64,000 bases of DNA, from contig NC_052404.1 in NCBI RefSeq assembly GCF_009389715.1, positions 10,548,480-10,612,479 on the forward strand, read 5' to 3'. This DNA comes from Phoenix dactylifera (taxonomy: Eukaryota > Streptophyta > Magnoliopsida > Arecales > Arecaceae). The notes below the pieces were generated by a model that saw only the letters and a program-made list of their open reading frames with translations, did not search any database and had not been told where the DNA came from. Every line of letters starts with the position of its first letter. Position 1 is the stretch's first letter. Shown here in pieces: positions 12,501 through 41,700 of this stretch. Both the position numbers and the translations under genes were made by a program.

Positions 12501-15500
12501 TTAGTCCTCATATTGGATATGCACAAACTTGGCTCCTCTGGGAGGCACTGTAAATACCCCCAACCCCCTACAACCAGAACCATCAAGTATTCTCAGCAAG
12601 AAGCTCATAGTTATCTATCACAGAGTACACAAGAAGTTCATAGTTATCTAGCAGAGAGTAACACTTGCAAAGAGACTAGGTCTTGCCTGACCAAGATGGC
12701 CATAGTTAAAACTTTTTCAATGATTTTGTAGGGTGTGAAGTGCTTGACGATGCTTACAAAGGCTTGGCCAAGGGGATCAGCATATTAGGGAAGTTCTCTT
12801 TTCTTTTTTTATGCTAGCTAGTTTCTTTTTCCTATTCCTTCTACATTAGTTTCATATATCTTAGGCATAGCATAGGTTCCTAGTCTTTTCCCTTGGAGGA
12901 GTTTTAGGGGAAGGAGAGGTGATCCCACGCCCTCTTCCTTCCCCAACAAACTCCCGGATAAGTAGACTAACATTTTCTCCTTTTTAGTTCTTGGTTTCAG
13001 ATTTAGTTATCATACCTGAACAGTTCTATTTATCCTAGGAACTCAAACCCCTAGGGAGGATATACCTTAGACTATGAAGGTTAGTCCACAAGCAAGCAAT
13101 CTCTTCGAGCACAAGTATTGTGTCCCTGCAGCTAAAGAACATTGGGTGGCAATCACAAGGTCTTCAAGCAGCAGCAGGATTGTGCGATGGAGATTGAGAT
13201 ACTACATCGAGGGGCAACAACACTCCTCTTATGACTAGAGAGCGGTGCAACCCTGATCCTACAAAACAAGCTTTTCACGGTCTCAAGGGCTCTGAAAAGC
13301 CTTCATGCGATAAAACTTGGTCTATGTAGCACATGAATTGGACTCATTGATTGAAAGGTGTTAGGCCTAAAGTTGAAGAGATACGATTATGGAATTTTCC
13401 AAAGTGAACTGAAAAAATTAGGCATATCAATTGAACTTCACGAGCCATTAGTTCATACATTTGTTCTCATGTTATTTTTGTTAATAACAACCAGAACTGG
13501 AAATGCAGAAATTCAGTCATCATAAAACCAATAAGCCATGTCTGGACTGAAGGACTCATTCAATTGTGTCAGAATCAGTTCTTGCTGTCAGAAAAAGTAT
13601 GATGAGGGCACCTTAAAGGGTGAAAAATGACTAAAATATGAAAATAGAATGAATAAGTTATATGCATGATCATGATGGAAGTATAAAGAAATTAGTAAAA
13701 AGATTGAATGAGAGGAAGGCTCAAAGTAAAGAAGTGCGGAGAAAGAAAGGGGAATTACTGGGAGAACAAGTTAAACTGGCCTGGTCACTTGGTCACCTTA
13801 TGACAACTTTGTGCTTCGACTTAGGCCAGACCTTTTTTGGGGGTTTGGGGTGGGGGTGGTCAGGAAGGAGGAGCAATATGGTGGTAATATGCCAGACCTT
13901 ATGACAACTTTGTGCTTCGACTTAGGCCAGACCTTTTTTGGGGGTTTGGGGTGGGGGTGGTCAGGAAGGGGGGGCAATATGGTGGTAATATGCCACCACT
14001 AGGGTTTCAACTTTGAACCTCTCTAAAGAGCAAGCCCTTAAGAGAGGGATGTTAACCATTGGAAAACACTGGAGCCCCAGTCCTGTTGGCTAGGGCTAGG
14101 AATTGTAGACTATTACATGTTCAATTATAAGTCAAGGGCCAGGACAAATGCACACTACAACTACAATTTGAAAATTTTATCTTTGATGTCATGTATGTTT
14201 TCTAACACACAATTAAAAGAAGGTCCGCTATACCGATCGTACCGACGTACCGGTGGGCACCGGTACCGGTTGGAACTGGTACCGAACCGGTCAATAGAGC
14301 AGCGAAGTCCGCGGATGCGAAAAAATCAAGGCGCGGATGCGTTAAATGCCATTCTTAAATGGCCCACACGGCCTGCCCCGCGTGGGCGCGCTGCCTCATG
14401 TGCGGGCGCTCTTCCCCGCGCGCGGAACCCTGCGCGGGCGCGGTTCCCAGCTCGGGGAACCGCTATCGGGGAACCGAGCGTTCCTAGCTTGCGCACGCGT
14501 GGGCACGGCGACTGGTGCGAACCGGACCAGTTCACACTGGTACGAAAGTGGAACTGCTCAGTTTCGGCTCCGAAGGGGTCGGAACTGTTTTTTAAGGCTG
14601 TACCGGACTGGTCAGGGGCGGTACCGGTTCGGTAGGGGCTGAACCGGCTGGTATGGGCTGGTTCAGCAGACAATGATCAAGACCCTTCTAGGGCCTCCCA
14701 AGTCTTTGCCTGAGCTCATACCAACTTAGGATAAATTAGTTTGATGAAAAGGTCTGTTTGGCTGCTTTTCAGATTTGGAGAGATTAACAAGTTATGAGAC
14801 CTTAAAATGAGTGTCTCCCTTGCAAAACATATTTTGGACAGTATCAGATTTTATGATTATCAGTTGTGAACAAATTCATGGACAAAACCATGTAGCCCCT
14901 CAAAGTTCCCTTTCAAAACTAACTGGCTCACAAGCAGAATACCCACTCTCTTCTTTTTCACATATAATATTTCAGAGATAGTCACTTTTCACCGCAACCT
15001 CATTTTCATGTGGGTACTTAGAATACAAGCATCTAACATACACTCTATAACCATAAGAGAATAGCTGATAACAACAGAAAAAATGGAAAAAATGGCTGTC
15101 GGCAAGTCAGGTTGTTTGGGAATGCAGCCTCAATCAGGCAGTAAATTCTGTAGAAGGAACTTGGGTGAGAGATTGATGGTGAATAAGTAGCTAAGTAGAC
15201 TGAAATGAAGATTATATGGTCATTATTAGTTAAGGTAATTATGTGATCATTATACTGTCAAATAATACTTTGGTCTAAATTATGTGATATTAATTCCAAC
15301 TATACACATGGACATTTTTTTTAAGGTAGTTCAAGTATAAACAAGATAAATTATAATATTTATAGAAACCTCACGAGGATATCCATGCCAATGAAAATGA
15401 GACATTTGACAATATGCATCTAAAATCTAATTCATAACCGTATTGATGATTCAAATTGATCGAGGAAAAGATACATTTTGGCACCTGTTTTTTGTTATAA

Positions 15501-17707
15501 GTTTCCTAAAAATGCTCATACATGCCTAAAAAATATTTTGATTACTTGCAGAGTTCCTGGACAAAACGTGCGGTGGAGGTGGACAGCCCCCAACGTATGT
15601 CTCCATCAGATCAGTTAGCCAGTCTACCTGATAGTACCTGTGCACAGGTCATTCACCCAAAGCCTGATGTATTCTATCATGATTGGGCGCCCATGAATGC
15701 CAATGGAGAGTACGAAGGACAAAAGGAACCTACTGGTACGACAACTATATCTTAATATTCATCTTAACTAAGTATTCAAGATGCTAGCATTTTGGTTAAT
15801 TTACGATCTGTATTACAGATGATTTCATGGGCAAAGACTTGGAGATAGGAGTACCTGGGAATCCAGATACACAACATGAATCATATCCAACTGAGCAGGT
15901 TTCCACCAAGTTAACAGGCTCAAGTATGGACAAATTGCCTGAAAGCGGCCCGAAAAATGAGGGTGCATTGGGACTTGATAGCAATAATGTGTCTGATGAA
16001 CCAAGCACCCAAGTTGTTGATCTGATTGGTGCCATCGCAAATGGCAACAATGCACAACTGGTAACCGGATTTACGGAGGCACCTAATGGTTTCTCCAAGA
16101 TCATGGAAGGCAAAGATATAACTGCTGATGGGTCTATGGTGTTACCATCTCTTGAGTTGAGTTTGAAGAGGCCGAGATCAACAGGAGAGGATGGAACTGC
16201 CACTCATGATGACCGCAATGTTCTAAGACGTTCAAATCTGTCAGCATTCTCGAGGTGTGAAAAAAAAAATATATGAGAACATTAATTTTTCTACTACTAT
16301 TTCAGAAAGAATAGCATTCTGACAATTTTTGTTTTTGTCCAAAGGTACCATACTTCTGCTGCTTCAAATCAAGCTCTTACTGGATATGTAGGAAGCTGTT
16401 CTCTGCTTGATAACTGCTCAGAGGCAGTGAAGACGGAATCTACATACAACATGATATCACATTCAAATGCTGCTCCTCTGAAGCAGGGTTCTAATGTCAG
16501 TAGTAACAACAATGACATGGGCTCCACCACGAAGAATGTCTTTTCTAAACCAGTCAAGGAAAAAGCAGAAACCACATCAGCAGTCAAGTGTATCCAACCT
16601 GCCACTGCTTTCCGTCCTGTGCAATATCAATCCTCTGGCACTCAGCAAGTTATGCAAGAGAAAGTTGATAATGTGACAGCAGCTGGATCAATTGGACAGC
16701 TAAGAGAGATCCAGTGTCAAGTTCAAGTGCAGCATCACCATCAGCACTATCATCATCATCACGTTACTCGCAGCATACAGGAGCAGCAGCAACTGCAGAC
16801 ACCACCAGATCATGACTTGTCTCTCAAGAACATGGCAGCAGCTGCCCGACAATGTGGGTCATCTAATATGTTTGCTGGGCCAGTGGAAGGTAATGCTGCT
16901 AATTATAGCTTAAATGGGAGCAATTCAGGCAGCAATCATGGGAGCAATGGGCAGAATGGAAGTAGTACAGCTGTCAATGCTGTAGGAATGAATATGGAGG
17001 TTGCTAATGGTTTTGCAGACAAGAGCAGGGCTGGAGGTGGCAATTGGAGTGGAAGCAGGAGCGGTAGTGGAGTAGATCAGAGCCGTTTTGTGCAGAGAGA
17101 GGCTGCCTTGAAGAAATTTAGGCAGAAAAGGAAAGCAAGGAACTTTGGAAAGAAGGTAGACAGCTTTTTGTCGCATGTCTATATTCATTGTTTCATTTCA
17201 AGAAGCATGAACATTGCATTGTCATGAAAATAAGCATACACGTCCAATATTGCTAACTTAATTTTCCCAAGATAGACCATGGTGTTGGTCATTAACAGTA
17301 AACTAATACCATGGCCTTCCAGGCCATTTACATACAGAAGATATCAAGATCTCCCAAAATTTTACAGAACAGCAGTATAAACATTGTCTTCTAGCAGTCC
17401 CGGTTTGTACACGGTGCATCTGCCACTACATGACCAACTATTTTTAGTTCTGTAAAATTTAGGGAGACAACCTTCTGCTCGTGAAGATTATGTTTGATGT
17501 TCTAGTGTTCAATCATATTGTCTTCATTGTTCGCTTTTGTTTTCCTTTTGTTGGAAGATTTGGATGGAATTGGGCTATTTGTTTGTTTTGGTTTTTCAGG
17601 TCCGTTACCAAAGCAGGAAGAGACTTGCAGAGCAGCGGCCCCGTGTGCGTGGACAGTTTGTGCGACAGTCTGTGCAAGAACAAAGAGGCCAGGAAGCAGA
17701 GAGATGA
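530..17707 (+). CDS. PRR37-like: Pseudo-response regulator of the PRR7/PRR37/PRR73 clade, circadian clock
   Basis: Eight coding exons: 530-905, 5718-5879, 6020-6153, 6411-6572, 15552-15735, 15819-16254, 16345-17155, 17600-17707. All junctions are GT-AG and in frame, giving 790 aa, close to monocot PRR37/PRR73. A receiver domain spans about residues 99-217, beginning KVLLVENDD. The phosphoacceptor Asp is replaced by Glu (E152 in LTEVVMPC), the hallmark of pseudo-receivers; the conserved Lys is K204 (LVKPIRKNE). A Ser/Gly/Asn-rich linker follows, with a His-rich run near 16730-16765. A CCT domain (about 735-778) is split by the last intron after FGKK and is complete. Known family role: nuclear transcriptional repressors in the clock that affect flowering time. 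The start is the ATG at 530, with MGSVDEA following. A CAG run at about 763-780 encodes Gln. PRR37 and PRR73 cannot be separated without a tree. Confidence 0.95.
1060..1600. repeat. Degenerate internal repeat built on AGCTTGA/TCAAGCT words
   Basis: Variants of TCAAGCTTGA, GAGCTTGATC and CAAGCTGA recur on both strands throughout this stretch, around an AT-rich middle (about 1320-1430). The two flanks resemble each other in inverted orientation. This looks like an old non-autonomous interspersed repeat; its class is unknown to me. Confidence 0.5.
2700..3190. repeat. Composite repeat: purine-rich core with GGTTC/GAACC flank
   Basis: A GATCG/GTTG-rich left part leads to a purine tract (about 2870-2960), then a right part with repeated GAACC and GGTTCA words (about 3000-3185). 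The architecture resembles the repeats at 9780-10330 and 40860-41280. No coding potential was seen. Confidence 0.4.
5352..5481 (+). mobile_element. Short retroposed insertion with poly(A) and 8-bp direct repeats
   Basis: A 114-bp segment ends in about 14 A residues and is bracketed by AGTTCTAA at 5352-5359 and at 5474-5481. A poly(A) tail with flanking direct repeats is the signature of target-primed retroposition. I see no clear polymerase III A/B boxes, so it may be a 5'-truncated SINE or LINE tail. Confidence 0.45.
8630..9660. repeat. Composite repeat with GCCC/GGGC-word arms and purine-rich core
   Basis: The arms carry repeated AGGCTGGGCCCAAGCC-type words (8640-8860 and about 9410-9655). 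They flank a GC-rich, purine-biased core of short GAGGG and GGCGA runs (about 8880-9290). The same arm vocabulary and layout recur at 22760-23740. It is likely an interspersed repeat family. Confidence 0.5.
9780..10330. repeat. Composite repeat: GGTTC/GAACC arm, pyrimidine core, GTACC arm
   Basis: The left arm (about 9785-9960) has many GAACC and GGTTC words. The core (about 10125-10235) is almost pure CT. The right arm (about 10245-10325) has GTACC and AGTAT words. The arrangement matches 40860-41280 and suggests a family. Confidence 0.45.
10340..11095 (+). repeat. Left copy of a diverged ~0.75-kb direct repeat, possible old LTR
   Basis: Shared landmarks appear in the same order as in 12530-13280. 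They are GGCACT plus TA-rich plus ACCCCCAA (10369), TTTTTCAACGAT then GGGTGTG (about 10504), TTTTAAGGGAAGG with a C-rich run (about 10720-10760), TTTCTAGATTTGAAAATC (about 10801), CTCTAGAGGGATA (about 10896), GCAGCAGTTGGAT (about 10994) and AATCCTATAAAACAGGTG (about 11073). The copies are too diverged for an exact border. No TG...CA ends are proven. Confidence 0.5.
11886..12314 (+). mobile_element. Complete TRIM (terminal-repeat retrotransposon in miniature), 429 bp
   Basis: Two 137-bp LTRs at 11886-12022 and 12178-12314 both run TG...CA and differ at 11 positions, mostly transitions. A primer-binding site complementary to initiator tRNA-Met, TGGTATCAGAGC, is at 12025-12036. A purine tract (GGGGGGAG) is at about 12168-12175. 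The 5-bp target duplication CTTCT lies at 11881-11885 and 12315-12319. The 155-bp interior has no coding capacity, which defines a TRIM. Replication would need enzymes from another element. It sits inside a larger, older repeat pair. Confidence 0.92.
12530..13280 (+). repeat. Right copy of the diverged ~0.75-kb direct repeat
   Basis: It carries the same ordered landmarks as 10340-11095: GGCACTGTAAATACCCCCAA (12545), TTTTTCAATGAT then GGGTGTG (about 12713), TTTTAGGGGAAGG with a C/T-rich run (about 12902-12950), GGTTTCAGATTTAG (about 12992), CCCCTAGGGAGGATA (about 13049), GCAGCAGCAGGAT (about 13173) and GATCCTACAAAACAAG (about 13255). With the left copy it frames a 1.4-kb interior holding the TRIM. 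This would fit an eroded LARD-type element. Confidence 0.5.
13796..13997 (+). repeat. 101-bp tandem duplication, two near-identical units
   Basis: CCTTATGACAACTTTGTGCT starts at 13796 and again at 13897. The two 101-bp units differ at only a few sites, so the duplication is recent. Each carries a G-rich tract (GGGGG-TTT-GGGG-T-GGGGG) able in principle to form a G-quadruplex on the + strand, which is the PRR sense strand. Confidence 0.92.
14217..14668. repeat. GC-rich GGTACC/ACCGGT composite repeat
   Basis: Both ends are dense in ACCGGTAC, GGTACCG and GAACCGG words (14222-14295 and 14515-14668) around a very GC-rich core (about 14370-14480). The base composition is unlike the surrounding AT-rich intron. 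Open frames on both strands here arise from the GC bias and show no domain. Confidence 0.6.
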
Positions 17708-18131: not shown

Positions 18132-20330
18132 AAAAAAAAACTCCTAGCCTATAGAGCACACAACTTGTTGAAGTTTAGCATGAGCTCGATAAATGATTGT
18201 CACCAATGCTGAGTTAAGTCTGTAATACAAAAATTTGAGAGTTTGTTATCAGTTCACCCTTGTGTGTTAGGAACATATGCAATTTTTGGTAGGCAAGACA
18301 TCTATCATTCAAGTACAAAGATTATACAATTTCTCCAGGCCTCCGCCTGTCACCCAATGCTTGGTTGCCCCTTAACAGTTGATTTCCGTCAGTCAGAGTT
18401 GATGTAGTGTACCGTTATGATTCTAGGACCATCCATTTCCTTTTAAACACGTTGAAGAGTTGGTCCTGTCCAATATCTGATATATTGCCTGGTCTAAGTC
18501 GTCCAACAAGCCCTTTGTGATTTGTCCGGTTAGTCCTTCCTTCGGGCGCTACAGAGAAATTATTCAACTTGGTCCCCATATTATGCTATATTCAACTTTT
18601 GAGACAAATAACGTCATAAATCTCTTATGTTTTTCAGTTCTTAGATTCTCATAATTATTTAAGCTTGAATAAAATATCAAAAGCACTATTTCTCCACTTT
18701 CTTTGACTGGCGATAGATCTGCTATTCATCACCCTCCAGGAAACTGTAGCGGTCACCCCTAAACAGGTCTCCTGTCATGATCTACATGGCTAGACAAATG
18801 TTTTTTTCCATGTGGTTCAGCTATTCTCGCTACACTAGTGTCATACATCTCTTGACAAGTAAAGGGATTCGACAAAAGAAAAAGAAAAACTATAGGTTTA
18901 TAGAATTATTCCTTCTATTTGGAAGCTCAACAAAAAACCCCAAAGTCCACTAAAAATATATACCAACCACATACTGCATGACCTGCATTTCACAAAAGTT
19001 CCAAAGCCCAATTACGTCTTTCCAACAGATGAAGAAGTAGAAAACGTCATTGGTACTGAGAACAACCGCCTGAAAAGTGTATCATTATAGGTTCCTCCTG
19101 CCAAACATTGCCTAGCTTCATAGTTGCTTCTTTCAGTCAGTTAAAAGTAAAAACTGGAATTAAAATTAAAAATAAAAGAAGATCAACAGAAACACCTGGA
19201 ATAAACTGTCTACTTGATGGTTCAGTACCTATAACACTATAACACAAGCATATATTCAATTACTTTGCATAATTAAAAAGATAAAACAATGAATGTGATA
19301 TAGCACAATATTTCGTCAAAAACACAGGCACTTACAAACTCAATAGATCATTAATTATGAGCCACCTCAATGTTGGCTTCCTGGGTAGCAATCTTCACCA
19401 CCATTTTCATTCACCTAGATGTGGAAGTTATGATATTTGCTCATTAAATGCCCGTGTTTGCTGGAAGTCCCCTTGTTTAAAATAGTCAACTATCAAAAAC
19501 GTTTGCAATGTAACTAAATTCTGTCTTCCTCTAAAGTGGATTACAGGTCTTTCCAAAGTCAACCTTCCTGCCTCACATTCTGACAATTTTTAAGCTTTTA
19601 CACTATGGTATCATAAAGTTACTGGTCCACATTATCATAAAAGAAACTTGTATATAAAAAAGAAAATTCAAACAAACTGCACCACAAATATTATTTGATT
19701 AAGTTGGTATGAGGATGCACAATAAAGACATGAAGCCATGTCCCAAAGAACCATGAAAAAGGAGGGTGAAACCTTGAGCTAAAATGGAGGAAAGCTGAGA
19801 AAATGGATTCTAAAAAGCTTGAAGTTGCTAAAGCCGCCTTCAGTAGGAAAGATTAATGGTAAGAATTTCCAATTATTGCTTACATATCACACTTAGGAGA
19901 AGAAAGGAATCTAGAACTTTTCACTATCAGGGGTCAACTTTTTCCGACACATAAAATATTCTAACTCCGTGTCTGGAATTGGTAGAAAGTCCGCTGTTTT
20001 CCCTCAATTTATGTTGGGTTGGTTCAGAAATGTAGTTTGTGAGTGCAGTCATTTGAAGTAAACATACTGAAGGTGGGGAAATTAGCACTGAAAATATTTA
20101 ATTGCACTTGGAGGTTAAAGATGAGATGCATCAATGGGCCAAAAACCAAAATAACCAAGATCAAGTCCAAACAAAACAGCCAGGAAGTACTACAACACGT
20201 GAAAGGAAGCTAGAAAAGCAAAAGTGGGGAACATCCTTGCATGTAATATCCAAGAACTAGAAAAGATTGATAAAAGAAAAGCATCGAAATAACTTCAACG
20301 ATCAGATAAAAATTGAATGTCTGTCACTAG
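18132..20330. other. Intergenic AT-rich DNA, nothing recognised
   Basis: There are no long open frames, family motifs, tandem repeats or element ends that I could recognise on either strand. Confidence 0.6.
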
Positions 20331-25788: not shown

Positions 25789-28191
25789 TTGTCCATGCAC
25801 ATCAGCAACTAAACCAGTACTCAAGGGTTCTGTCTTTAGCACAATATCTGCAAGGTACTCCAGTTATGAAAGGAGCCTTGGGGCCTCCTCACTTGAATAG
25901 ATATCTTCATGGTTCAGAATCATTAGAAAGCAATCCTGTTTAAAAAATGAGAAGGAACTCCATCAATGGAGTGAGAATTAACAAAAGGAGGGACAGGCTT
26001 GAAATTGTCTTTTCTAACCAGTTCGGAGGTGAGGACAATACAGTAGTATAGAAAGTCAACATACAGGCTTGAAATTGTCTTTTCTAACCAGTTCGGAGGT
26101 GAGGACAATACAGTAGTATAGAAAGTCAACATACAGTCTACAGAACCATGGGCAGCTAAAAAGGGAGAGGTCATCAATCATGATGGTGATGCAGCCTCTT
26201 CTGTATTCCTTTGCCCTGCTAGCTTCTATAACCCTCTGAAACTTACCACACGATTCAACAAAACCACCTTCAATGTCATTTCCCCAAGTCAGACCTATAT
26301 TTCAAGAATCATTAGCTTAGCCGCATGATGAATTAACTTAGACATCACAGTAAAATGTCATCATTATGATGTTCACAAAGTGAAAAAACACCAGTAGAGA
26401 TCAAAGGACACAACAATAAAGACTCTGTAATTGATGGTTGGCAGCAATTTTCTTTGCCTTCATACTTGCCTGGAAATTCTAGCTTAAGCATCTCAAGAAA
26501 GTGCAATTGATTGTTGTTCCTTTGTACTGATAGATTGCAACCCTGAATCAAACAGAATGTACTATACTATTACTACTGTAATAATGTTCTGAAACAATCT
26601 GTGAAGGGAAAGAGCCACCAAAAAAGCAGGCATTAACTGTGAGAGAACAAAAACCAAACATAAGAAAACACCTGAAAAAAATACATATGACAACTCACAA
26701 GGTAAAATTAAGTAACAAACTTTGATATCGGCAAATGATATACATGTATACACATGAATAATTTGATTGGCATGGGCATTATCTACTGTGTGAAAGAGAA
26801 AACAGGAAGCTATCGATGCTTGTGCAGATGTAAATCGTGTGTAATATTAAAACATGTTTATAGAGTGGAAGGCATAGAAAACAAGACAGTAGCATCATAA
26901 AGGTTTTGCAAAGGTTGAAATGACTTGTTTATCATATGAATTTCAAAATCTCCATCATGTTTCTCATTCTCAACATCCATAAGCATAAAATCCTTAACAA
27001 ATATGAAATATATTCTTTAATTATCAAGTGATGATTAAAAGAGAAACGCATCTTTATGGTAGATCATCCTTTTGAAAGAAAATCAGAAGTCAGAATAATT
27101 AGGTAACTTAATCAACCTTTTATTCAGATCATAATTTCGCAAGGTGCAAAATCAATAGCTCTTGAATCATACTGAAGGCACCACATGTTTACAGTTTCTA
27201 AGTGAACCTTGTTAGATAGCAATATGTCCTTTCTGAACTTGTAAAAGAACACCAGTCAAATAGTCTTACAAGAATTGATTATCCAAGCCAGACAAGCACG
27301 AGAATAAGAAAAGGCAATAGAATGTACCTGGTTTGCTAATTTGACAAACCCTCTATAATTTTTCAATAAATATAGAAAGCTCTGAGTCCATTTTTTCCCT
27401 GTTATTCTTCCCTTCTTGATCAATCGATCCCTAGATTCATCACAACAAATATCAGCCACGTTGTTAAAACCAGTCACACGCTCGAATAATAGAATGCTGC
27501 CTCTGATACAGTTCCATATTTCAACAAAGATTTCACACCACCCAATCCAGTTCAAGAAATGCTTTCTACGAAAATAATGCCTAGTCACTTGATTTCCATT
27601 GGAAAAGAAAAAAAAAAATCCATCCCGTTGATCCTAACAACTGCATTACGTAAATCTATTCATCTTGATATCAACCGGTGGCTGAAGTCATATCTCCGTT
27701 GCTTGCATTCTCTGATAAAGAACTATTGATCTTGAGCCAGGTTAAATCTTGAACGGACCTCTCCATCAATGCGCGTGGAAAAGGTCCCCATCCCGTCGAT
27801 CCCAACGACTTCAATCCTACTATTATCCGGATCATGAGCGAACGCACGAACAGTAATGTAAAGAAGCGATTAAAACAGAAAGGAAAAAGAGCAATCGATG
27901 TTTGAGAAAACGAGGAGGAGACGATCGTAGAGATTATGGTTGGGGTTCGGGATCTTTGCTTGCCAACATCCTCGGAACGCGATTGTCGTGGGAGAAGGGC
28001 TGGGCAAGGGCGAGAAAGGGCACGGCTCGCCGCCCTCGCCGGCGGAGAGGGCGCGCTTCAGGAGGTGGTGGAGAACGAACACGCCGCTCGTCCTCGACGA
28101 GGACGACCCTCACCGCGGCAAGCGGAGCGATGGCTCCTCCGTGGCCGACGCCCAGGGCCTCGTCAAGGGATCGGGGTTGTATCTTTCTCAT
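25789..28191 (-). pseudogene. ELP6: Elongator complex subunit 6 (ELP6) relic with introns
   Basis: Exons on the - strand: 28191-27964, 26542-26470, 26294-26089, 25935-25789. Diagnostic pieces are LVED, FVLHHLLKRALS, ALAQPFSHDNR, GCNLSVQRNN, GCITIMIDDLSL, LYYCIVLTSEL, ILNHEDIYSS and LSTGLVADVHGQ, in the order of plant ELP6, a RecA-fold subunit of the Elongator tRNA-wobble-uridine complex. Damage: between about 28089 and 28026 the conserved residues lie in another frame and the frame later returns; the same happens at about 26162-26128; a TAA stop is at 25866-25864; no last exon was found. Introns 1 and 2 would need GC-AG splicing. A 70-bp tandem duplication covers the exon 3 donor. Retained introns mean it did not arise by retroposition. 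Assembly error is the alternative. Confidence 0.78.
25993..26136. repeat. 70-bp tandem duplication across an ELP6 exon-intron junction
   Basis: Two essentially identical 70-bp units run head to tail. On the - strand each has 45 nt of exon ending in TCCGAACTG and 25 nt of the following intron starting GTTAGA. Splicing from the first donor (exon end 26089) would remove the second copy, so this change alone need not damage the protein. Confidence 0.95.
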
Positions 28192-28489
28192 CAGGGCGTC
28201 GTCAAGAAGATTGAAACGAGGGTTCGCCGCTCCTCTCCCTCACGCGTCACGAGCGAAACCCCGCAATACTGGAGAGGGGAGAGGCGCTTAATCGGCTATA
28301 CTTATAGCTGCGCGAGCTTTGATGGCCTCCGGCTCCTGGAAAATGAAATAGGTGGGCCCACGGCCTGTTTACACCGTGTGTGGGTCCAGCCAGTGAACGG
28401 TGGGTGACGAATGGATGATCAACGGTGATTGATCATGGGAGAACATGCACTAGAGTTTAGTGCCTAATTAAGGGACCGTCTGCATGGAA

Positions 28490-28790
28490 AAGAAGATTGC
28501 GTGAATGCTGATTCAGGGCTCAAGTTTGTTCTTATTTCTTGGGATCCCCTATCTTTCGGCTATCTTAAAGTAAATTTTGATGGTAGTGGCACCGGAGATG
28601 GTGATAGTGCAGGCGTGAATATTGTGACCAGAAATTATGACTCACATATGATTACTGTAGGCGAACGAAGCACTGATAGGCTGACAGCTATAGAGGCAAA
28701 GCTCAGAGCAACATGAAAGAGCATCTGCTATAACGGGACGGAGGCTGGGGGCTAAGCGCTGAGCGCATCATCCTCGAAAAAAAAAGTTAC
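28490..28790 (+). mobile_element. LINE remnant: RNase H-like fragment with poly(A) end
   Basis: An open stretch at 28501-28716 carries LKVNFDGSGTGDGDSAGVNI, then VTRNYDS and TAIEAKLRA. This is the KxNFDGS...AGxGxVxR...xAExxAL pattern of the RNase H domain at the end of plant LINE proteins. A short 3' part ends in a run of nine A (about 28779-28788). It is 5'-truncated and only the C-terminal tip remains. Confidence 0.55.
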
Positions 28791-28799
28791 AGTAACCGA

Positions 28800-30679
28800 C
28801 TAGATATGAAAGGAGGGGTGAAAGTCCCCTACTCTACGACATTCATCAAAATATTGAGAGACTACAGCGCCATTTAGGCAGTGCATGTGTGTCGGAAGGC
28901 GAACAGGACCGCAGACTGAGTCGCTTTTTATGCTGCGCAGCATACCGAAGAGGTCCTTTGGCCACACTAGGGGCTCTTCTTTACAGTTGTGCCGGATTGC
29001 AGCCCTTGATTCTACTAACTGCACCTACACTGGAGTAGAGTAAGCAGCTGTTGTACCCACAAAAAAAATATTGTGTAAATAAGTGGAACATTTGGAGTTA
29101 TTTTCAAGTCTTCTAAAAATCTTTATAAAAAAAGGGAAAGGTTTTCAAAATAAATTATTTTAAATAAATGGGAGGACCGAAGCTATTGTGGTGGATTGTT
29201 GTTGATTTATTGTAAACCTCTTCAGTAATGTACAAGTTGTATACGAAATTATCCTATACGCTCTATCTCCCAAAAATTTCAGATTTGATTTCCACGATGG
29301 TACTTTTGGAAGGTGTCCCTTAAGACTCTCTTCTCTATTGCATGTTAGCTATGAGACCTTTTGTTTGTTGACTCTAAAATAGAAAGCTCCGTCGTATAAC
29401 CATTTCACCAGAAAAAGGGTGATAAAAAATCAAAAATATTCAATCAGTATAGGATCTGCTGAATGAATGATGCTTTGCCACCGCTTCAATCTAACTACTA
29501 GTCCACCGAAGATTTTCGGCATTAACAATATATTCTCAATATATTTATTGAGTTGGAATTAACCGATAACTAATACTAATATTAATATTTATTAGTGCGG
29601 AATAGAAATTTGAAATCAAGCATGACCAGACGGTAAGACAATGGGTTTTGGTTTCTACATAAAACATAAAATTGTTAACGAGAACAATCTTTTATTGCAA
29701 ATCCTTAGAATGATTCTCATTTTCCATGGCTCCTGTCATAGTCTAAACTGGTTCTCCTTTCCTCAATGAATCACCATTGAATCCATGTTTCTTCTCCTAA
29801 CTTTTGTTTTGCATTTTAATCTCCATCCCTGCCAAAGATGCGGAGATTTTCCTCAACATCACAATTATTCGTCAACTTACCTCCCGCTCATCATTCTAGA
29901 CTTACTAATCTCAACGATCATTCTAATCGCAACCACAAGCTAAATGGCCTAAAAGTAATAAGTGCTTTTTATTAAATTATGTGGATTGAGTCATGAATCA
30001 AGAAACCTATTCCAGATTGGATTGCGACGGGTCGGACTCCGAAGTCCTCTTGGCACTCGACAGCATGACATCAAGCCCAAATCGATCCTATCACCCTAAT
30101 ACGCCTTCGCCCTGACGCGACTAGCTTTGACGTTACACGTAAGAGACTGGAAAACTTTGATGGAACAAAAGCATGAAGAAAGAGGACGGGATCGCCGGTC
30201 CGTCGTCCGGTTTACGACTTTGGGTCATAAAAATCAAACAAGAAATAATTAAAAATGGCCCGGCGTATTTGATATCATTAATAAATAAATAAATTAGCCC
30301 TGTTTCTAGGTGAAACCATGCTTTGATGTACGAAGAAAAATTAAATAAACAGAATACTAGAACCGCGTTTCTTTCAAAGATCCGGGCACAGGGTCTGTTG
30401 GATTCCTAAATCCAACGGTCGACATCTTTCCATCTTTCCGTTTGGTTCGGATTCCAAGAAACGACTGTTGTCTGATATACAATGTGATTAGGAATTAAGT
30501 GAAGTTTTTCTTCCCCTAATTTTATGTTATTTTTCCCGTAATTTTTCTTTTCTAAATTTGGCCTGTTTACTTGAGTCCTTCCTCCTCATTTCCTTCATCG
30601 CTCTCCGACTCTCACTTCTTAAGAGAGCTAAAGAGGGAGACCGGAAGAAGGACGCGAGAACGATCGGTGGTTGGGGGAA
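28800..30679 (+). other. Intergenic DNA and upstream region of the PBL27-like kinase
   Basis: No gene was recognised. A palindromic AT stretch lies near 29525-29600. Moderately GC-rich unplaced sequence lies near 30000-30130. The last 150 bp (30540-30679) are CT- then GA-rich and directly precede the kinase ATG, consistent with its 5' leader. I could not define a core promoter. Confidence 0.45.
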
Positions 30680-33600
30680 ATGGGGTGCTTTCCGTGCGCC
30701 GGAGAGCCGAGCAAGAAGGGCAAGGAGAAGGATCAGATCTCGCCGATCTCAGGTACTTGGATTCCGTAGCAAATTTGTGCGTTTTTTTGGAATGTTTTGC
30801 TTCATTTTTTTGGGTTTTAAGTCGATCGAATCGGCTTGGTATGAGATATTCTTCCATTTTTGTCTTCTGGGATATGGATTTTGGTTCGGATGGTTCCGGA
30901 TTCCGGGTGAAAGTTAGGGTTTGCCGAGGGGAATCATTCGATCTGGAGGTGTTTCTTTTTGGTCAGGATTTCCAGACTCTTTTCTCTAAAAAATTGATTT
31001 TGGGTTGGGGTTGGCGTTTGGAAGGAACCCTTTCATCTCCGTGATGGTTTTTCTGGGCTCGATTGGCGTAAAGGTGATGGCTCTGATGAGGGTTGAGTGG
31101 AGACGATCTCCCATGTTCTAATATGAGTTTGCTGTTTCTTATAGCCATTCCCTTGAAAATAAATTTCCTGTTGCTTCTATAGGATGAGATTTTCTTTTTC
31201 TGTCGGGCGATGACTTGATCGTTTAATTAGCTCTGCCGTGTTCAGTCGATCAATATCCGCATATATGTTAATCTTTGATGCATTTATTGATGCTCTTTCT
31301 GCATATATATAGTTTGGATGGATAATCAAAATGGCAACTTTTGATTCAAATTTTGGTTAAATTTCCTATTAGTCTGCATTCGATTTGAGATTTAAATGTC
31401 GGGGGTCATACTGCCTCATTACTTCCAACTGAGCTCGCTCTCCTGCTGTCGTGAATTAAGCACGCAATATTCATTTTGATCTTTTTATTCTGTGTCATAG
31501 AAATAACTGAGGCACGTAAAACAGAGAATCTTAATGTTTAGCATGTCATGGCCGCTGATATTCATTTAGGGAAGTGTAGGCAATGGAACTAGAGAGTTTT
31601 CCTTGTGGACTAAACAAATAAACATATGGGACTGTGATATTTGTCTTTTAGGTCAATAATATGAAGTTTTAGTCTTTCTTTGTTATTTGATCATTTTGTA
31701 TTTATTTAGTTCTCATGTTCTCAAAGTATTTGTTTAGTCATTCATCGTTGTTTATTCTTCAGCAGATAAAAAATCCAATTCCACGTCAGATGTAAAGAAA
31801 CAGAGTTCACTGGATGCAAAGGAGGAGGCCTCAAATAATGGATCTGAACATATTGCTGCTCAGACATTTACATTTCGTGAACTGGCTGCGGCAACCAAGA
31901 ATTTCAGAGTTGATTGCCTTTTAGGAGAGGGAGGGTTTGGCCGAGTCTATAAGGGAAGGTTGGATAGTATTAACCAGGTCAGGCTCTGTTATCTTTGCCG
32001 TTAATCTTTGATTTTTTCCCCACTGTATTTCGATTTGCTTGCAAACTAGTTTCTCTCCCATTCTCTCTTCAGTTTTCAAAAGTGGAAGTTAACTTTTGCC
32101 TAGTTCCAAGCTTCCAAAAGTGAGTTTTCTCAGATAAGATTGACACATTTGTTGTCAAACCTATTTTATTTCCATCAATAATTCAACTGAATTTAAATAT
32201 TTGTAATCTGCACTGAAATCTTGCACCCCTGTTTTTCTTTTGCTCCTTGAATTCTCAATCTAGAAACTGGTACAGTGGTTTGACATTGCTGCGCTGCATG
32301 AATAAGAGGAGTGTGAAGAATTGTTTCTTTGCTGAAAGAAAACATTATTGGTTGCTCACATGGAATTTCCTTATGTTCTGCGTAGGTTGTGGCTATAAAG
32401 CAGCTTGACCGTAATGGCTTGCAAGGTAATCGAGAATTCCTTGTTGAAGTTCTGATGTTGAGTCTACTTCACCACCCTAACCTCGTTAACCTAATCGGAT
32501 ACTGTGCTGATGGAGATCAAAGGCTTTTAGTTTATGAGTACATGCCATTAGGATCCTTGGAAGATCATCTTCATGGTAAGCTAATGTACAGTGCATCTTT
32601 TTGTTATAGTGGATTGGATTTGTCATGTACTTGACATGCAGTTTTTTTTTTTTTTACACTGAAGCATACCTGTTTATCTGATTACCTTGGTTGCAACAGA
32701 CCCTTCTCCAGACAAGAAGCGGCTTGACTGGAACACAAGAATGAAAATAGCTGCTGGTGCAGCTAAAGGATTAGAGTATTTGCATGATAAGGCCAATCCT
32801 CCTGTTATATACCGCGATCTGAAATGCTCTAACATTTTGCTTGGAGAGGGATATCATCCCAAGTTATCTGATTTTGGCTTGGCAAAGCTTGGCCCAGTCG
32901 GCGATAAAACTCATGTTTCCACTAGGGTAATGGGTACTTATGGATATTGTGCACCTGAATATGCAATGACTGGACAACTGACACTAAAATCAGATGTCTA
33001 TAGCTTTGGGGTCGTTCTTCTGGAGCTTATTACTGGAAGAAGGGCTATTGACAATTCTAGAGCTGCAGGGGAGCACAATCTCGTTGCATGGGTAAGGGGC
33101 TCCGCCTTCCTGTTCGTCTTTGTTTCTACGCACACGTGCATGCATGCATGCACGCACACAGATTTCCTATCCCAGATTTCTTATACATTCAAATACTTCT
33201 TTCCAAGAAACAGATTATTATCTCAGCCTAGTTAGCATGAATATTAATTAGTTAACTTGTGTTCTGGAAAATAACTTGATCTCAGATCTCTAGCCCTGAA
33301 GTTTAGTGAGGAAACTATGCACATGAATCTTGATGTGCCCACCAACAGAAAACAGTTTGGGAGGTCATTTTTAGTTCCTTCTTTTTCTTTATTATTATTA
33401 TTATTATTATTATTTAATCTACTATAAACTTCCACGGAGCAACTTTATTGCCTCTCTGATCTCATCCAGATAAATTGAAAATTTCCTACCCTAGAGTACA
33501 CATTGGATTCTAAGCTGTAAAACCTGATGTAATTGTTGACATTAAGTTTGAAATTTTGAATATGCAACTTGGATTGGTCGGGCCAGAACCTTTTTGAATC

Positions 33601-34194
33601 TTGACTAGGCAATGCCTGTGGCTAAATTTTCCTGCTTGGAAGTTAGTCCTTCCCTTGTCAGTTGGTTCTTTATTGTGGGGAATCATATCTGTAGACCTTC
33701 TCACTAGCTGAGGAAAGATCTTTTTGGTTCAAGGCTCTCAGATTCTTTCCCAAAGGAAAAGAAATTTCATTCTTTGCACTTTGAATGATAATTCCTTCTG
33801 TGAAAGCTTGCCCTTGCTTGGATGTTCATGCATATGGATACTTGTGAATGTGCTGTATGTTTGTTTTCAGGCACGACCCCTTTTCAAGGACAGAAGGAAA
33901 TTTCCACAGATGGCTGACCCAATGCTTCAGGGCCAGTATCCTGTGAGAGGCTTATACCAGGCACTTGCTGTTGCTGCAATGTGTGTTCAGGAGCAGCCCA
34001 CCATGAGGCCTTTAATAGCTGATGTGGTTACTGCTATCACTTACCTTGCTTCCCAAACTTACAACCCCGAAGCCCAATCAAATCAAAATACTTCTCGTTT
34101 GACGGCACCAGGTACCCCACCTCGAACAAGAAGGGACAGCGAAAAGAAACCAAGTGGTGGATCTGAAAGAGACCAGTTGAGAGGACTAAAATGA
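30680..34194 (+). CDS. PBL27-like: Receptor-like cytoplasmic kinase, RLCK VII (PBL27-like)
   Basis: Five exons: 30680-30752, 31763-31977, 32386-32575, 32700-33091, 33871-34194; 397 aa. It starts MGCFPCAGE, giving an N-myristoylation Gly2 and palmitoylatable Cys3/Cys6, so plasma-membrane anchoring is expected. Kinase domain: Gly loop [10 protein letters not shown] (79-88), VAIK with Lys101, catalytic YRDLKCSN with Asp199, DFG at 217-219, then an activation segment ending APEY. The segments [14 protein letters not shown] and [17 protein letters not shown] are typical of the PBL27/CDL1 branch of subfamily VII, which relays receptor-kinase (for example chitin) signals to MAPK cascades. The HRD motif reads YRD, usual in this family. 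The Ser/Lys-rich tail after residue about 345 is low complexity. Which PBL paralogue it is remains unclear. Exon 2 has a NAGNAG acceptor. Confidence 0.95.
33389..33414 (+). repeat. (ATT)n microsatellite in kinase intron 4
   Basis: About nine ATT units lie in the last intron of the kinase gene. It is a simple repeat with no expected effect on splicing. Confidence 0.9.
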
Positions 34195-36100
34195 AATCAT
34201 CCATTGCTCGTCAGAGCAAAGTGCTTCAATTCTACCTGCTTTGCTACCATCTCCTGGTGCCAGAACAGTGAAAATTTTTGCCACGCGTTTATTCTCTTTT
34301 GGCTGTCTATTTGGTGTCTGGTCATCAAATTTTGTATCATCAGAAAACAGGTGCACCCTGTTTGATTCATGCCTAAATTCTTCCAGAAAGTGGCCTTTTT
34401 CTCCTCCCCCCTTATTCTTTTTGTTGCTGTACATGTAATTTCAGGCCCCTGTATTTAAATGTATCTCTTTAGACGGCACGTGCTTTTATTGATGTTATTA
34501 TTTTTTATATCTGGTTTCAGATACAACAGTATATATTCACATAAGACTAAAGGTTTATGTAGTATGCAGGCATTGCCAATTTGCCATTTTTATTAACTGC
34601 ACTCGGTTCCTCCTTAGCTTTCATCCGTATAGCTACCAATAAACCTGCTCAAGTTTCAGCTATTCGGCGGAAAAAAGATGGATTATTGGCATATCTGATT
34701 TAAATTGTGGCAACCATTATATGCTTTGATGAACCCATGTATCATGGCTTTGACTAACTAGGTTTTTTTAAACTGCCATTTATGGGGGGTGGTTGTACTT
34801 GTACCATGAACATTTTCCATTTTCTCTCCCAGCTGTTATACTGAAGTTTTCCTTCTATTTCCAGGAATCAAGACATGATATATGTGGAATGTCATTTGAA
34901 AGCAAGTATTCTAAGACTGGGACTTCAGTTTGAGGCTATGATTAGAAGTGGAATCCTCACAATATTAGAAGAAAGATGGTAAAAGGCCCGATTCTAGTAC
35001 TCATTTTTCCGCTGCAGTTCAGATGTTATGCGTCATGATGGTATTGATGCTCTACTTCTCGCAAAAAAGATGGTGTTGGTGCTCTAAACTTTAAACCACG
35101 ACCCATTGTTCAGCATGGCGTGCCAGCGGAAAAGGGACGAGTTTAGGTTGTAGAGATGAGAATGTCAGTGTAAACGTGACCCAGGTGAACTTGCCCCTGA
35201 TAAACCTGCCAGGTCTTGGCAGCCCTGCAAGTAGTGGGCTTGATAAATGGTGATATGTTTACTATCATTCGATATTCCTTCTGCGAATGATGATGTTGAG
35301 GCATGAACACTCTGTGATCTCTCTTTACTGATGTCATGTGGATTCTATGACGGAATCCCGGCCAATTGATCTGCTGAATCTACTGTCGATATTGTATGCC
35401 ATGTGGGTATTCTTCATCATATGAATTGTTCAGGACTAGTGAAATATAAGCCTCCATTTTTAATTACTTATAACTTATTGAATACTTGCAGACTGAAAAG
35501 ATTGGTAGCGTTACCGATAAACCTTAAGATACCAGTGTGTTAGCAGGTGAAGGTTTTCTAAATCAAATTGTGATACCTGTGAGATGACCTAATCAGATGA
35601 TGAGCATGAGCATGCCATGACCATATCTTTAAACTTGACTGTCTTTTACTTATGGTGTATTATAGCTGTAACTCTGAACCATTTTGCTGGAATCTAGAAC
35701 AAAATCTATGACATAAAAAAAAAAAAATTGTATCAAGTTAACCATTTCTTCATCTTTAGATATTGGCCTGCAAGCAGGAAATAATATAGAGTGCCGGTTG
35801 CCAGATCTCATGGACTCCAGAAACATTTCATCCCTGATGATATTATAACTTGACATAGCTCAACGTCTTTCTCCAGAATGAACCAAAGGATTTCAGATCT
35901 GATTGGCCATTCAGCACAACAGATTCTGTTTCAAGGAGAGCAACGTCATGCGAGCACTGGGCAGGCTGCCTTGACTGATCTCTGCACCCCCAATGAGACC
36001 TCTATCCATGGAGGGGGTGGCCGTCCAGGCATATGAGACTTGATTTGAAAGGAGAGAATGCTGTTTCGGGACAGCCTGTAAGAAATTGGGCAGATGAAGC
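34195..36100. other. Kinase 3' region and intergenic DNA
   Basis: The first few hundred bases are the likely kinase 3' untranslated region. Beyond that I see AT-rich intergenic sequence without recognisable genes, repeats or RNA genes on either strand. Confidence 0.5.
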
Positions 36101-36102
36101 TT

Positions 36103-36300
36103 AGGCCCTGTTTGGAGGAGCTGTTGGCAGTAGAGCTGTTGGAAGTAAAGCTGTTGGAAGTAGAGCTGTCTGAAGTAGAGCTGTTATAAAAAGCTGTTTG
36201 GTAACTACATTCGTAAAGTGCTGTGGTACTTTGTTTTGTGTTTGGTAAACAAACTGAGAAAGTACTTTTATATGACAAAATTACCATAAAGGACATTGCA
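36103..36300 (+). mobile_element. Possible end of a non-autonomous DNA transposon with 15-bp subterminal repeats
   Basis: It begins AGGCCCTGTTTGG, a terminus common in plant MITE/hAT-like elements. Five or more tandem copies of an AGCTGTTGGAAGTAG-type 15-mer follow (about 36119-36185). AAATTACCATAAAGGACAT near 36277 is also a familiar phrase from such elements. I did not find a matching inverted end downstream, so only one terminus is supported. Confidence 0.4.
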
Positions 36301-37585
36301 TAGTATTATACAACACAACATAATAAAACATAACATAAATTAATACATAAATATACGATATAGTATAATATTATTGTAATATAAAATAATATTATGTTAA
36401 TATAGCATAATAGTAATATAATTATTAGAGTAAATTAATATTTGATAATATAACATAATATTAAATTATTTAACATAACATATTAATGTATTATGATATA
36501 ATGTAATATATATTATATTTATAATATAATACAATAATAAAAGTATAAAATATTATAATTATTAGTATAAATTAATTTCTCATAATATAACATAATATTA
36601 AATTATTTAAAATAACATATTAATGTATTATAATGTAATGTAATATAATACAATATTTATAGTATAATACAATAATAAAGGTATAAAATATTATAATTAA
36701 TATTATAAATTAATTTTCCATAATATAACATAATATTAAATTATTTAAAATAACATATTAATGTATTATAATGTAATGTAATATAATACAATATTTATAG
36801 TATAATACAATAATAAAGGTATAAAATATTATAATTAATATTATAAATTAATTTTCCATAATATAACATAATTTTAAATTATTTAAAATAACATATTAAT
36901 GTATTATAATGTAATGTAATATAATACAATATTTATAGTATAATACAATAATAAAGGTATAAAATATTATAATTATTAGTATAAATTAATTTTCCATAAT
37001 ATAACATAATATTAAATTATTTAACATACCATATTAATGTATTATGATATAATATAATATGATATTATATTTATAGTATAATATAAAAATAAAGGTATAA
37101 AATATTATAATTATTAGTATAAATTAATTTTTCATAATATAACATAATATTAAATTATTTAACATAACATATTAAAGTATTATAATGTAATGTAATATAA
37201 TACAATATTTATAGTATAATACAATAATAAAGGTATAAAATATTATAATTATTAGTATAAATTAATTTTTCATAATATAACATAATATTAAATTATTTAA
37301 CATAACATATTAATGTATTATGATATAATATAATATGATATTATATTTATAGTATAATACAAAAATAAAGGTATAAATATTATAATTATTAGTATAAATT
37401 AATTTTTCATAATATAATATAATATTAAATTATTTAACATAACATATTAATGTATTATGATATAATATAATATGATATTATATTTATAGTATAATACAAA
37501 AATAAGGATATAAAATATTATAATTATTAGTATAAAATAATTTTCCATAATAATTTTTCATAATTTTTCATAAAATAATTTTCCG
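36300..37585 (+). repeat. AT-rich minisatellite, ~138-bp unit, about 9 copies
   Basis: The phrase TAAATTAAT followed by a CATAATATAACAT-like word starts at 36431, 36568, 36706, 36844, 36982, 37120, 37258, 37395 and 37533, a strict 137-138 bp period. Units are more than 90% A+T. Neighbouring units differ by a few substitutions and share variants (for example TTTTCC versus TTTTTC), pointing to stepwise local duplication. It directly follows the transposon-like end at 36103. Confidence 0.95.
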
Positions 37586-38739
37586 CGGTCCAGGGGCTCT
37601 TCTTCATGGTCCACGCTCGAGGAGGACCTCAGCGTGGGCCGCGAGGTTGATGATAAAAAAAAATAATTGTACTCCTAGGCCAAGAAGGTGGAGTCTAACG
37701 ATTCCCGGCTCAACATGATTCCTGGGCGTGACGCCAAAAAGATTGTCGGCAGGCCAAAAGCCAATCGCCACCCTGGCTGGTCAGGTAGTAGCCCTTCTCG
37801 AGCCTTGCGACCCTGTGGTCGGGTGGCTCCGGGACACGCGGCCCGTGCCTGGTGGCCAATCTGGGGATGTGTGAAGCGATAATTGGGAGAGTCCGGCGAC
37901 GCGACGGTACACAATGCTTTTATGCATCTGACCTCCAGGTGTCTAGAAATGGAGGACGAGAGAAGCATTGATTTCAGCAATGAAGAAGAAAGACGATGGT
38001 AGTCAAAAACGAATTGATATCATTCATGTTATCTGGGGTCAAGAGTATAATTTCGACGTGTCAGCTCTTGGCATACTGACACGGCAAAGTGCCGGAAAAA
38101 GAAGAAAAATCTCAAGACATAATTCAATGTTGAATGGGTGATGCAGTTGTCGGTTGCGATGACGGAAAGTTGCGCTCCCCTCTGCAAGGTGTCGTACTCG
38201 TAGAAAGCATTCGAATTTCAAAAACTCTTAAAGAGGGGGGAGTCTCACGGGTTGCAGCTCCGGTGCAGCACCGTCCGTTATCCATGAGCTTCGCATGCAT
38301 ACGTGTATATGGTCCGCCCAGTTGAATTCGTTGAAACGACTTCGCTGGTCAGGCTTGGTCTGTTGAAAATTATGTTCCACCAAGAGAATTGTCCCACTCT
38401 CCATCAGGTAGCATCCATGATTTCAATGAAACGTAAAACAAAAATTTCTTATCTCTTCTTGCATCCACGCCTACTAATTTACATTAATGTAACAACGGCC
38501 GACCAACTTGTAGCTGGCATTTAGAAGATTACAAGGATATTGCCAAATCTACAGACACTCGCTATGACTTGGATTTTGTACAAACGGGAAATGGAAACCG
38601 ATCATATCGTATGCTTTTATAATTTAATGGATCTTCTGTAACGGTAATACAAACACAGTACATGACAGCAATACAAAAAGAGGTGCGGTAGCATGCTGAT
38701 GTGCCGATTGCTTCCATGGACAATATACTTATCCAAATC
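37586..38739. other. Intergenic, partly GC-rich, and 3' flank of the RabGAP gene
   Basis: A short inverted repeat (GGTCCACGCT and AGCGTGGGCC, about 37609-37640) is followed by a GC-rich block at 37680-37910 with open frames on both strands but no recognisable domain. The last few hundred bases before 38739 are probably the 3' untranslated region of the - strand RabGAP gene. Confidence 0.45.
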
Positions 38740-41700
38740 TTAATCACCATTCAGATCTTTGTTCGGTGCTTTGGGGCTCTGTCCCACGCTAGAAGTTTTG
38801 CCTTCAATGGACTCTTCAGCATTGCTTGGCTTACCCTGAAACTAAATGAATTTTTAATCGGAATCAGTAGAATCAAAACGTTATAACACATCTTATGAAG
38901 CAATCATATAACCCCAGGTTTTAGGATGGGGTTTATGAGTTCTTTCTGCCCTCAATATTACCTTTTCTGTTACAGTGGGCATTATTTACATTATTAACAC
39001 GTTATGCGAAGTAAAAGCAAAGGATCAGAATGAATGCATTTCCAATTATACAAATGACGCTAGGAAAGCTATGCGGAGCAATGCTTTACGTTAAATGGCG
39101 CACGTTATTTTATTCAAGCAGATCTCTCGGCAAACATGCCCCTAGAAGCATGATACTTCCTTTTGTCACTCATTTCATTTATTTGTTATAACAAACGAAA
39201 AGGGAATCAAGTGATTCTCATGAGTCAAACCATGAAACTACGGTCTATCTATCAAAAGAAATCACTTCAATATAATCATTGTAAAATATGTCAAAGAATT
39301 AACACATTCAAAATTATTACAACTGCTTAAGACTTTTCCAGAATGAGTCGAGTTTTACAGAACTTGTTTGACCATCATGTTGGTTGAGATCAAGGATCTC
39401 ATAACAAGCAGTATCGTCATAAGAAGTATAACAGAATAGCTAAAAGTGAGATTGAGGATAATGAGATATTTTTGATATATGTTAATGTGTTGCATGTGCA
39501 TGTCCGTGTGCATATATAAAAAATTCTATATGTTCAATCATATAAATTGTAAAGCAACGAAAACTCCTATCTAACTAAGATGCTAAGTTAAAATTTAGAA
39601 GCTTCATGGTTAAGACGAGTCTATGATGGGTCAGCACAACAGTCTTTCCTTACTTTCTAGCATGCTTTTGACCTTTTCTTAGACCCGAAGAGGTTGTGCC
39701 TATTCCACAAAGATACACGTATAAGTAATCCTTCAGAACAAACAATTTGGCACTAACAAGATGTGCAAAACCTATATTAACCACTCGACAAGCAAAACAC
39801 CACTTGCCGGACAAACACATGACTGGTTTTCATAAGCATATTGCAACCAATGAAATTTTAAAGGCTGACTTTAAGAAAATTACCTTGTTCTTGTCAAGCC
39901 AGCCAAATGGTCTGGAGAGCAGTCCCATTTTCCTGGTGGGTGCATCGTGAGACATCTCTTGATTGGTCCGTGGAGTTCTGCAAAACAAATCACTCAATAC
40001 AGGTTCTGATAATCATTTTGAGTAAACAGCATGCACACTATGCCTATAGAAAGTGAATTGGCCCATGTTATCACAAACTGTGCACCAAAATGCATTTATG
40101 TTTATCTACATTTTAGAGTGTTAGTGGGATAAAAGAACCATGCAATTTAATGAAACATATGAAAGCGGACAGTGTACAACTGTACATGGTAAGGAGAAGA
40201 AGATGCCCTGATAACAGTGACTCAATCCAAGAATAGAGTTCATCTTATAGCAGTTACTTGTCAATGACCACGTGCAAAATAAATAGTATCTAATAATAAA
40301 AAGATGGAGATACCTTGGAGAATGAGGTTGTTGGGCTTTAACCTGGCCAGACTGGTACTGCAATGTGGCCTCCAGCATCGTTTCTGCCATCACAGCCCTT
40401 TTCTCCATTTGTGCAAGTGCAGACATCGCTTCTTCATATTTTTCCTGCATGTGTCAGGTAGAAGCAGGTAAAAACATACAGCTCCTGAAGAATAACACAA
40501 AATAAATACATATATTTTGTTCCAGTGCATGTGAAGTTAAAAAAATTGATGGTGCAATCACTCATGATCCTCCTAGGAAGAAAAGCGTAAATAGGCCAGG
40601 AAAAGGAACCCTGTGATTACACAATTTGGGAGCAGAGATCATTTGAAGCATATTCTTAATTGAAAACAGAAGATTCACAACTCTTCTACAATTTATGTTA
40701 TAAACTGCAACTTTTTCAGAAAATACTGAGTGTTCTCCATTTGCATTTGAAAAGAACTCAGAATAAAACATTATCAGTACCTTTGCAATATATACAATTC
40801 CTACAAACATAGATAAAACAGACACCATGCTCAAATATGATAAACAATGCCCAATCTCTGATCCATGGTCGGCAGAACCATCCCAAACCGCCCGATTTGG
40901 GGCGTCCCGAGCTGTGTCGGCATAGGACCGGGACGGTTCCATCATTGAAACTGAGACCCCATCGCCGGAGGGAGAGAAGCAGAGGAAAAAAGAGGAGGAG
41001 AGAAAGAGAACGGGGAGGGACAGAAAGGGAGAGGAAGGAAGAGAGAGGCCGGCCCGGCCGGCCTAGGAGATGCAGAGGCTCCCCGGCCTCTGTTGGCCGG
41101 CACCTCTCTTCCTTCCTCTCCCTTTCCCTCCCTCCCCCTCTCTCTCTTTTCCTCTCTCCCATTCTCCCTCTCCCCTGCCTCTACTGTGTCAGTACTAGGC
41201 CGGTACGACACGGCGCAGGGCCATACCGACCTGTGCCGCCGGGCAACCGGTATGGGGCCCGATATCGGCACAGCAGACGTTGCTCTGACAAATTATTTAA
41301 TAAAATGACAGATTCTGACAAATTTACTCTCAAAAAAAAAAAGAAAAAAATCAACCGGAGGAGAAAATTCCTTAGATTGATCTGTCAAGAGGAACAACCT
41401 TAAAGGTATTTTGTGACAACAAAGAGCTCGACCAGCTAACAACATGGTAAAAATCAAAAGTGCAAAATAGCAAGACAAGGAGCAGATCTAGAGTTTACAC
41501 ATTCTCAGTCCAGTTTGAGGCCCAATGCACATCCTTTTCAATGAAAGTAGGAATTCTGAAGGACACACAAGTCACTGGTCCATACATGTTTATAGAGCCA
41601 TCTCTTACTACCAGAAGTAAATTAGTAATGTCAAAGGTCAAAAGTTGTAGTGAAAACTGGAACAAATTCTCCTTGTGCGACTTCACTAAAGATGAAACGA

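Follow-up and report, generated by a model that had tools for sequence, protein, structure and literature searches.

A very probable non-processed ELP6 pseudogene in the date palm, with an intact partner in a collinear block

Plant pseudogenes derived from whole-genome duplication form a known class, as set out in PMC5187791, and a whole-genome duplication common to all palms sampled is described in PMC6535811. The copy of ELP6 (Elongator subunit 6, PF09807) studied here, on contig C13, resembles the former class in that it keeps its introns and flanks, its parent is intact on another contig, and it carries several disabling lesions. No substantial difference from the class was apparent. With the palm duplicate pairs, it shares a collinear block, neighbour pairs on both sides, and dS values of 0.23 to 0.40 in chosen pieces, but here we infer the duplication event. 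The titles and abstract beginnings of the publications found on duplication of ELP6 or Elongator in plants hold nothing on this locus, and a literature search on compensatory frameshift, pseudogene, and whole-genome duplication found nothing.

We analysed a window of 64,000 nucleotides on C13. The locus is almost certainly a non-processed pseudogene, namely, the C13 copy of ELP6 lost after an old block duplication, with the copy on contig C3 intact. Alignment against the C3 gene placed five exons of the relic on the minus strand (Table 1), with the exon order and intron positions of C3 and 88% exon identity. Two BLAST alignments between the relic and C3 covered 1565 columns each, with 77.7% and 76.8% identity and E reported as 0.0, and BLAST against the C3 protein gave matches with E values as low as 4.6e-20; judged from these alignments, the homology to C3 ELP6 is far above chance level. 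The preliminary description had placed an intron-bearing relic with the ELP6 exon order at 25789..28191 on the minus strand. This was borne out by the alignment for the four exons there, but the fifth exon and a 70-bp tandem duplication had been missed. A processed (retro)pseudogene was ruled out, as all four introns are present among the five exon relics.

Table 1. Coordinates of the ELP6 relic and associated features in the window
Feature	Position	Strand	Evidence
Exon 1 relic	27964..28227	-	200/225 ungapped positions identical to C3 exon 1 (pairwise alignment)
Exon 2 relic	26470..26542	-	73 bp, no indel; 66/73 identical to C3 exon 2
Exon 3 relic	26089..26294	-	176/206 ungapped positions identical to C3 exon 3
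Exon 4 relic	25789..25935	-	No indel; 134/147 identical to C3 exon 4
Exon 5 relic	19367..19489	-	106/123 identical to C3 exon 5
Proximal upstream remnant homologous to C3	28202..28318	-	77.9% identity, 122 columns
Upstream stretch of about 0.93 kb, no C3 counterpart detected	28319..29246	.	BLAST between both upstream regions
Perfect 70-bp tandem duplication, two copies	25996..26135	-	Exact matches; TRF 100%

A second, intact ELP6, for which a genome search had been proposed, was found at C3:2451576-2459908. This gene has five exons of 237, 73, 212, 147, and 123 bp, all of its introns are GT-AG, and it comprises 263 codons plus a stop. The C3 protein scored 112.5 bits against Pfam ELP6 (cut-off, 31.6), with residues 23 to 250 as the matching part. 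It also passed the cut-off of the ELP5 family Elong_Iki1 (31.1 bits) and did not pass that of PAXNEB. The protein search of the whole genome (773,078,369 bases in 2391 contigs) yielded 11 matches, with all 11 candidates scored. Five were on C3 and six on C13, none of them outside these two loci, and no third ELP6 locus was found in this protein search of the 773-Mb genome. When the genome was searched with the Pfam ELP6 family, six candidates were scored and the sole reported match was C3 exon 1; the stop in that row lies within the portion of the match running beyond the exon into the intron. In a sequence search of the PDB, residues 1 to 223 of the C3 protein had no hit at E values up to 1, and there is therefore no solved structure usable by sequence.

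Compared to the C3 gene, the relic has lost its ATG and has acquired five exonic indels, two GT-to-GC donor changes, the 70-bp tandem duplication, and two in-frame stops, with lesions present in four of the five exons. Exon 1 has GCG where C3 has its ATG, and a 39-bp in-frame insertion is followed by 11-bp and 1-bp deletions that jointly restore the frame. The ATG at 28191 is inside this insertion and differs from the ancestral start. Exon 3 has a 5-bp and then a 1-bp deletion, which together restore the frame. The net length change is a multiple of three in both exons, and the two frame returns reported earlier are thus real relative to C3. An in-frame TAA interrupts exon 4 at 25866-25864. 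Exon 5 contains an in-frame TAG at 19417-19415 and retains the old terminal TGA at 19369-19367; the preceding intron 4 is 6299 bp long, compared to 5808 bp in C3. The relic therefore differs from a functional ELP6 with an intact frame in its lost start, its two frame-shifted stretches, and its stops in exons 4 and 5. None of the three relic pieces scanned (exons 1 and 3 and part of exon 4) had a Pfam match to PF09807 at E up to 0.1, although such short pieces lose power. We infer that the relic is without function.

The exon 1 and exon 2 donors are GC in the relic and GT in C3. At both intron 1 and intron 2 (27963 and 26469, minus strand), the GC is accompanied by A at +3, where C3 has GT and G (gtgagc/gcaagc and gtgagt/gcaagt, respectively). 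GC with A at +3 is the GC-AG form of the donor, and the shared change in the two relic donors may represent coincidental transitions.

The 70-bp tandem duplication straddles the boundary between exon 3 and intron 3 and doubles the donor site. C3 has one copy, and both relic copies align by BLAST to one and the same C3 stretch. The copies show 0 differences over 70 positions (95% upper bound, 0.043 between copies); because they are identical, the duplication, if real, appears to be younger than much of the decay of the relic. Tandem duplications resembling this one were detected by TRF at two other places in the window, a near-perfect one at 13795-13995 (101 bp, 2.0 copies, 98%) and one at 52469-52553 (35 bp, 2.4 copies, 100%).

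Inverted collinearity was found between the window and C3:2.409-2.476 Mb, with 39 matches of 80 bp or longer, every one of them on opposite strands; one (40857-41278) is off the diagonal. The collinearity extends into both flanks (40 kb on one side and 20 kb on the other) and pairs C13:10.509-10.632 Mb with C3:2.505-2.406 Mb. Over the window and its flanks together, opposite-strand matches of 150 bp or more numbered 44 and covered 46,677 columns with a weighted identity of 76.1%, the off-diagonal match and doubled hits such as C13:10525833-10526271 included; there were four same-strand matches. At this mean identity, the block duplication is an old one. Introns 1 to 3 of the relic align end to end with C3 at 80 to 82% identity, and their JC distance of 0.21 to 0.23 is near the exon dS of 0.215; intron 4 matches C3 only across its first 2 kb. 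Because there is one intact ELP6, on C3, and because the window is collinear with C3 into both flanks, the relic is the lost partner in a segmental, and most likely whole-genome, duplicate pair. The introns and flanking DNA are kept and the intact parent is elsewhere in the genome, as in a non-processed duplicated pseudogene.

Neighbouring gene pairs are kept in both blocks. The protein kinase pair at 32386-34191 (+), beside the ELP6 relic, was assigned to Pkinase by Pfam from the one exon scanned. In three hand-picked exon pieces, its dN/dS values were 0.06, 0.22, and 0.09, with dS between 0.23 and 0.32, and its differences by codon position were 21/11/59 (p=7e-10). This kinase pair is under strong constraint. 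Response-regulator and CCT pieces of another gene pair were found within 521-17224, both with Pfam scores below their cut-offs; we take this gene to be PRR-like. The dS of the ELP6 pair is similar to that of the other kept pairs, for which the values cited at the outset apply to chosen pieces. In the block examined, a long collinear stretch is thus combined with other kept pairs of similar dS, as in a remnant of whole-genome duplication. The window also contains an AT-rich tandem array at 36417-37552 (138-bp unit, 8.2 copies, 94% matches) in a stretch with no C3 match, and the GC content of the bin containing it, 36001-38000, is 0.238.

We propose that some 120 kb or more of sequence was duplicated as a block long ago, most likely by whole-genome duplication. 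On this account, the C13 ELP6 was redundant with the C3 copy and lost its selective constraint. It subsequently decayed by substitutions, short indels, the tandem duplication, and probably an upstream insertion, while C3 retained the one intact ELP6 found in the genome.

The paired, frame-restoring shifts had been considered unusual for neutral decay. This is not the case. In a model that placed three indels in one exon and two in a second one, the chance that both exons end in frame was 12.4% when lengths were drawn from the 43 gaps of introns 1 to 3. It was 11.9% when they were drawn from the 940 indels of the whole block, which include those of neighbouring genes and a few from off-diagonal or doubled matches. 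The frame return therefore needs no selection, since it arises by chance in about 12% of cases. The frame had also been described as open from 28191 until the TAA in exon 4. These coordinates are exact, but the frame is open only in one conceptual splice, of 192 codons, which requires the GC donors at introns 1 and 2 plus the first of the two exon 3 donors. With the second exon 3 donor, the conceptual splice reaches a stop after 179 codons, and the unspliced frame reaches one after 85 codons, at 27936-27934.

To place the loss in time, we compared the relic with the C3 exons. They agree at 682 of 774 ungapped positions (88.1%), and the 255 gap-free codons, in which the final stop codon was counted for codon-position differences only, gave a dS of 0.215, a dN of 0.107, and a dN/dS of 0.50 (bootstrap, 0.31 to 0.84). 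The limits overlap other neighbouring pieces, which reach 0.29 to 0.51. Differences by codon position were 31/24/36, which is not significant (p=0.30). This periodicity test is weak for short genes, because the frame pair at 53811-54410 was also not significant (23/21/34, p=0.15); the pieces at 521-17221 had 97/77/134. Three pieces of the kinase, five from 521-17221, and the frame at 53811-54410 served as controls; they were chosen by hand from a set of open-frame matches that all had a dN/dS below 0.6 and that included wrong frames. Others on the same strand and in the same stretches were omitted, such as 6007-6198 (0.51) and 31741-31998 (0.33). At the central dN/dS, the unconstrained share of the time since duplication was 0.32 to 0.88 for an omega of 0.4 to 0.1, a share that depends on the assumed omega and that is widened greatly by the bootstrap limits.

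These data bear on whether the duplicate was retired recently, as had been suggested. Such a reading accepts the same pseudogene and differs from our preferred explanation in age alone, with the loss coming late. The retirement itself stands, given the intact C3 paralogue. Several features are compatible with a late loss. The exons align better (88%) than the introns (80 to 82%), although higher exon identity is expected because the C3 branch was constrained. The exonic indels are also below neutral expectation: 8.5 (block rate) or 10.4 (introns 1 to 3) were expected on one branch, and 5, or 6 with the tandem duplication, were observed. For a fully neutral branch, the probability of at most 5 indels is 0.15 to 0.05, and that of at most 6 is 0.26 to 0.10. 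Constraint may therefore have lasted for a time, and the relic may have been under constraint for part of the period since duplication. The lower dN/dS limit of 0.31 would likewise leave little unconstrained time. However, the duplication itself is old, judging by the 44 opposite-strand matches, lesions are spread over most exons, and the central dN/dS gives the substantial unconstrained share reported above. Because dN/dS is 0.50 and codon periodicity is not significant, old decay is favoured over recent decay, within wide limits, and a recent retirement is improbable.

The C13 copy might alternatively be active, either as a shortened, translated ELP6-like protein of 192 codons that starts at the ATG at 28191 and is spliced through GC-AG introns or as a transcript that regulates the C3 gene. 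GC-type donors can splice, and the sequence at the exon 2 donor, CAG|gcaagt, is similar to the GC-AG consensus. The 192-codon frame is open in its one conceptual splice, and the net length of each relic exon is in frame with C3. In contrast, the shifted stretches fall within the Pfam-matching part of the C3 protein, whose last quarter (residue 198 of 263 onward) is cut off in the relic by the TAA, and the absence of Pfam matches in the three pieces scanned, the lack of significant periodicity, and the chance frequency of the frame return all argue against this reading. The upstream region argues against it as well. Upstream of the old start, homology to C3 stops after about 90 bp, where the stretch with no detected C3 counterpart begins; in C3, the flanking matches are about 0.2 kb apart. 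The outer anchor of this stretch, at 29247-29287, is a weak match (E=0.005), and the stretch is probably an insertion, as judged from the alignment. In the proximal upstream remnant, the relic has TATAAGTA where C3 has TATAAATA, a putative TATA box identified by eye. An 82-codon open frame at 28468-28716 (+), upstream of the relic, looks by eye like a retrotransposon RNase H fragment and had no Pfam match at E up to 0.1. It is thus very unlikely that the locus yields a short protein or a regulatory transcript, and we give equally little credence to the full form of the idea, in which the C13 copy is transcribed, GC-AG spliced, and translated from an insertion-borne ATG into a short ELP6-like protein with two re-framed stretches and a frame held by selection.

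Errors of assembly or base calling in a working second ELP6, the other cause offered by the preliminary description, are scarcely credible: the 1-bp deletions could each be long-read errors (the one in exon 1 is close to a G run, and the one in exon 3 is GG to G) and a local misassembly could in principle account for the perfect 70-bp tandem copy, but the 11-bp, 5-bp, and 39-bp changes, the lost ATG, the two stops, and the two donor changes are separate from 1-bp read errors and appear unlike residual ones, correcting the two 1-bp deletions alone would leave the 11-bp and 5-bp deletions uncompensated, and dN/dS together with the non-significant codon periodicity suggests relaxed constraint.

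The analysis corrects two readings of the C13 relic, one as a recent loss and the other as an assembly error. As an ordinary pseudogene, the relic is of limited importance by itself. It is a clean illustration that compensating indels alone do not show a pseudogene to be under selection. It also adds one more gene of a conserved complex that has returned to a single intact copy after a block duplication, with the losing copy still readable.
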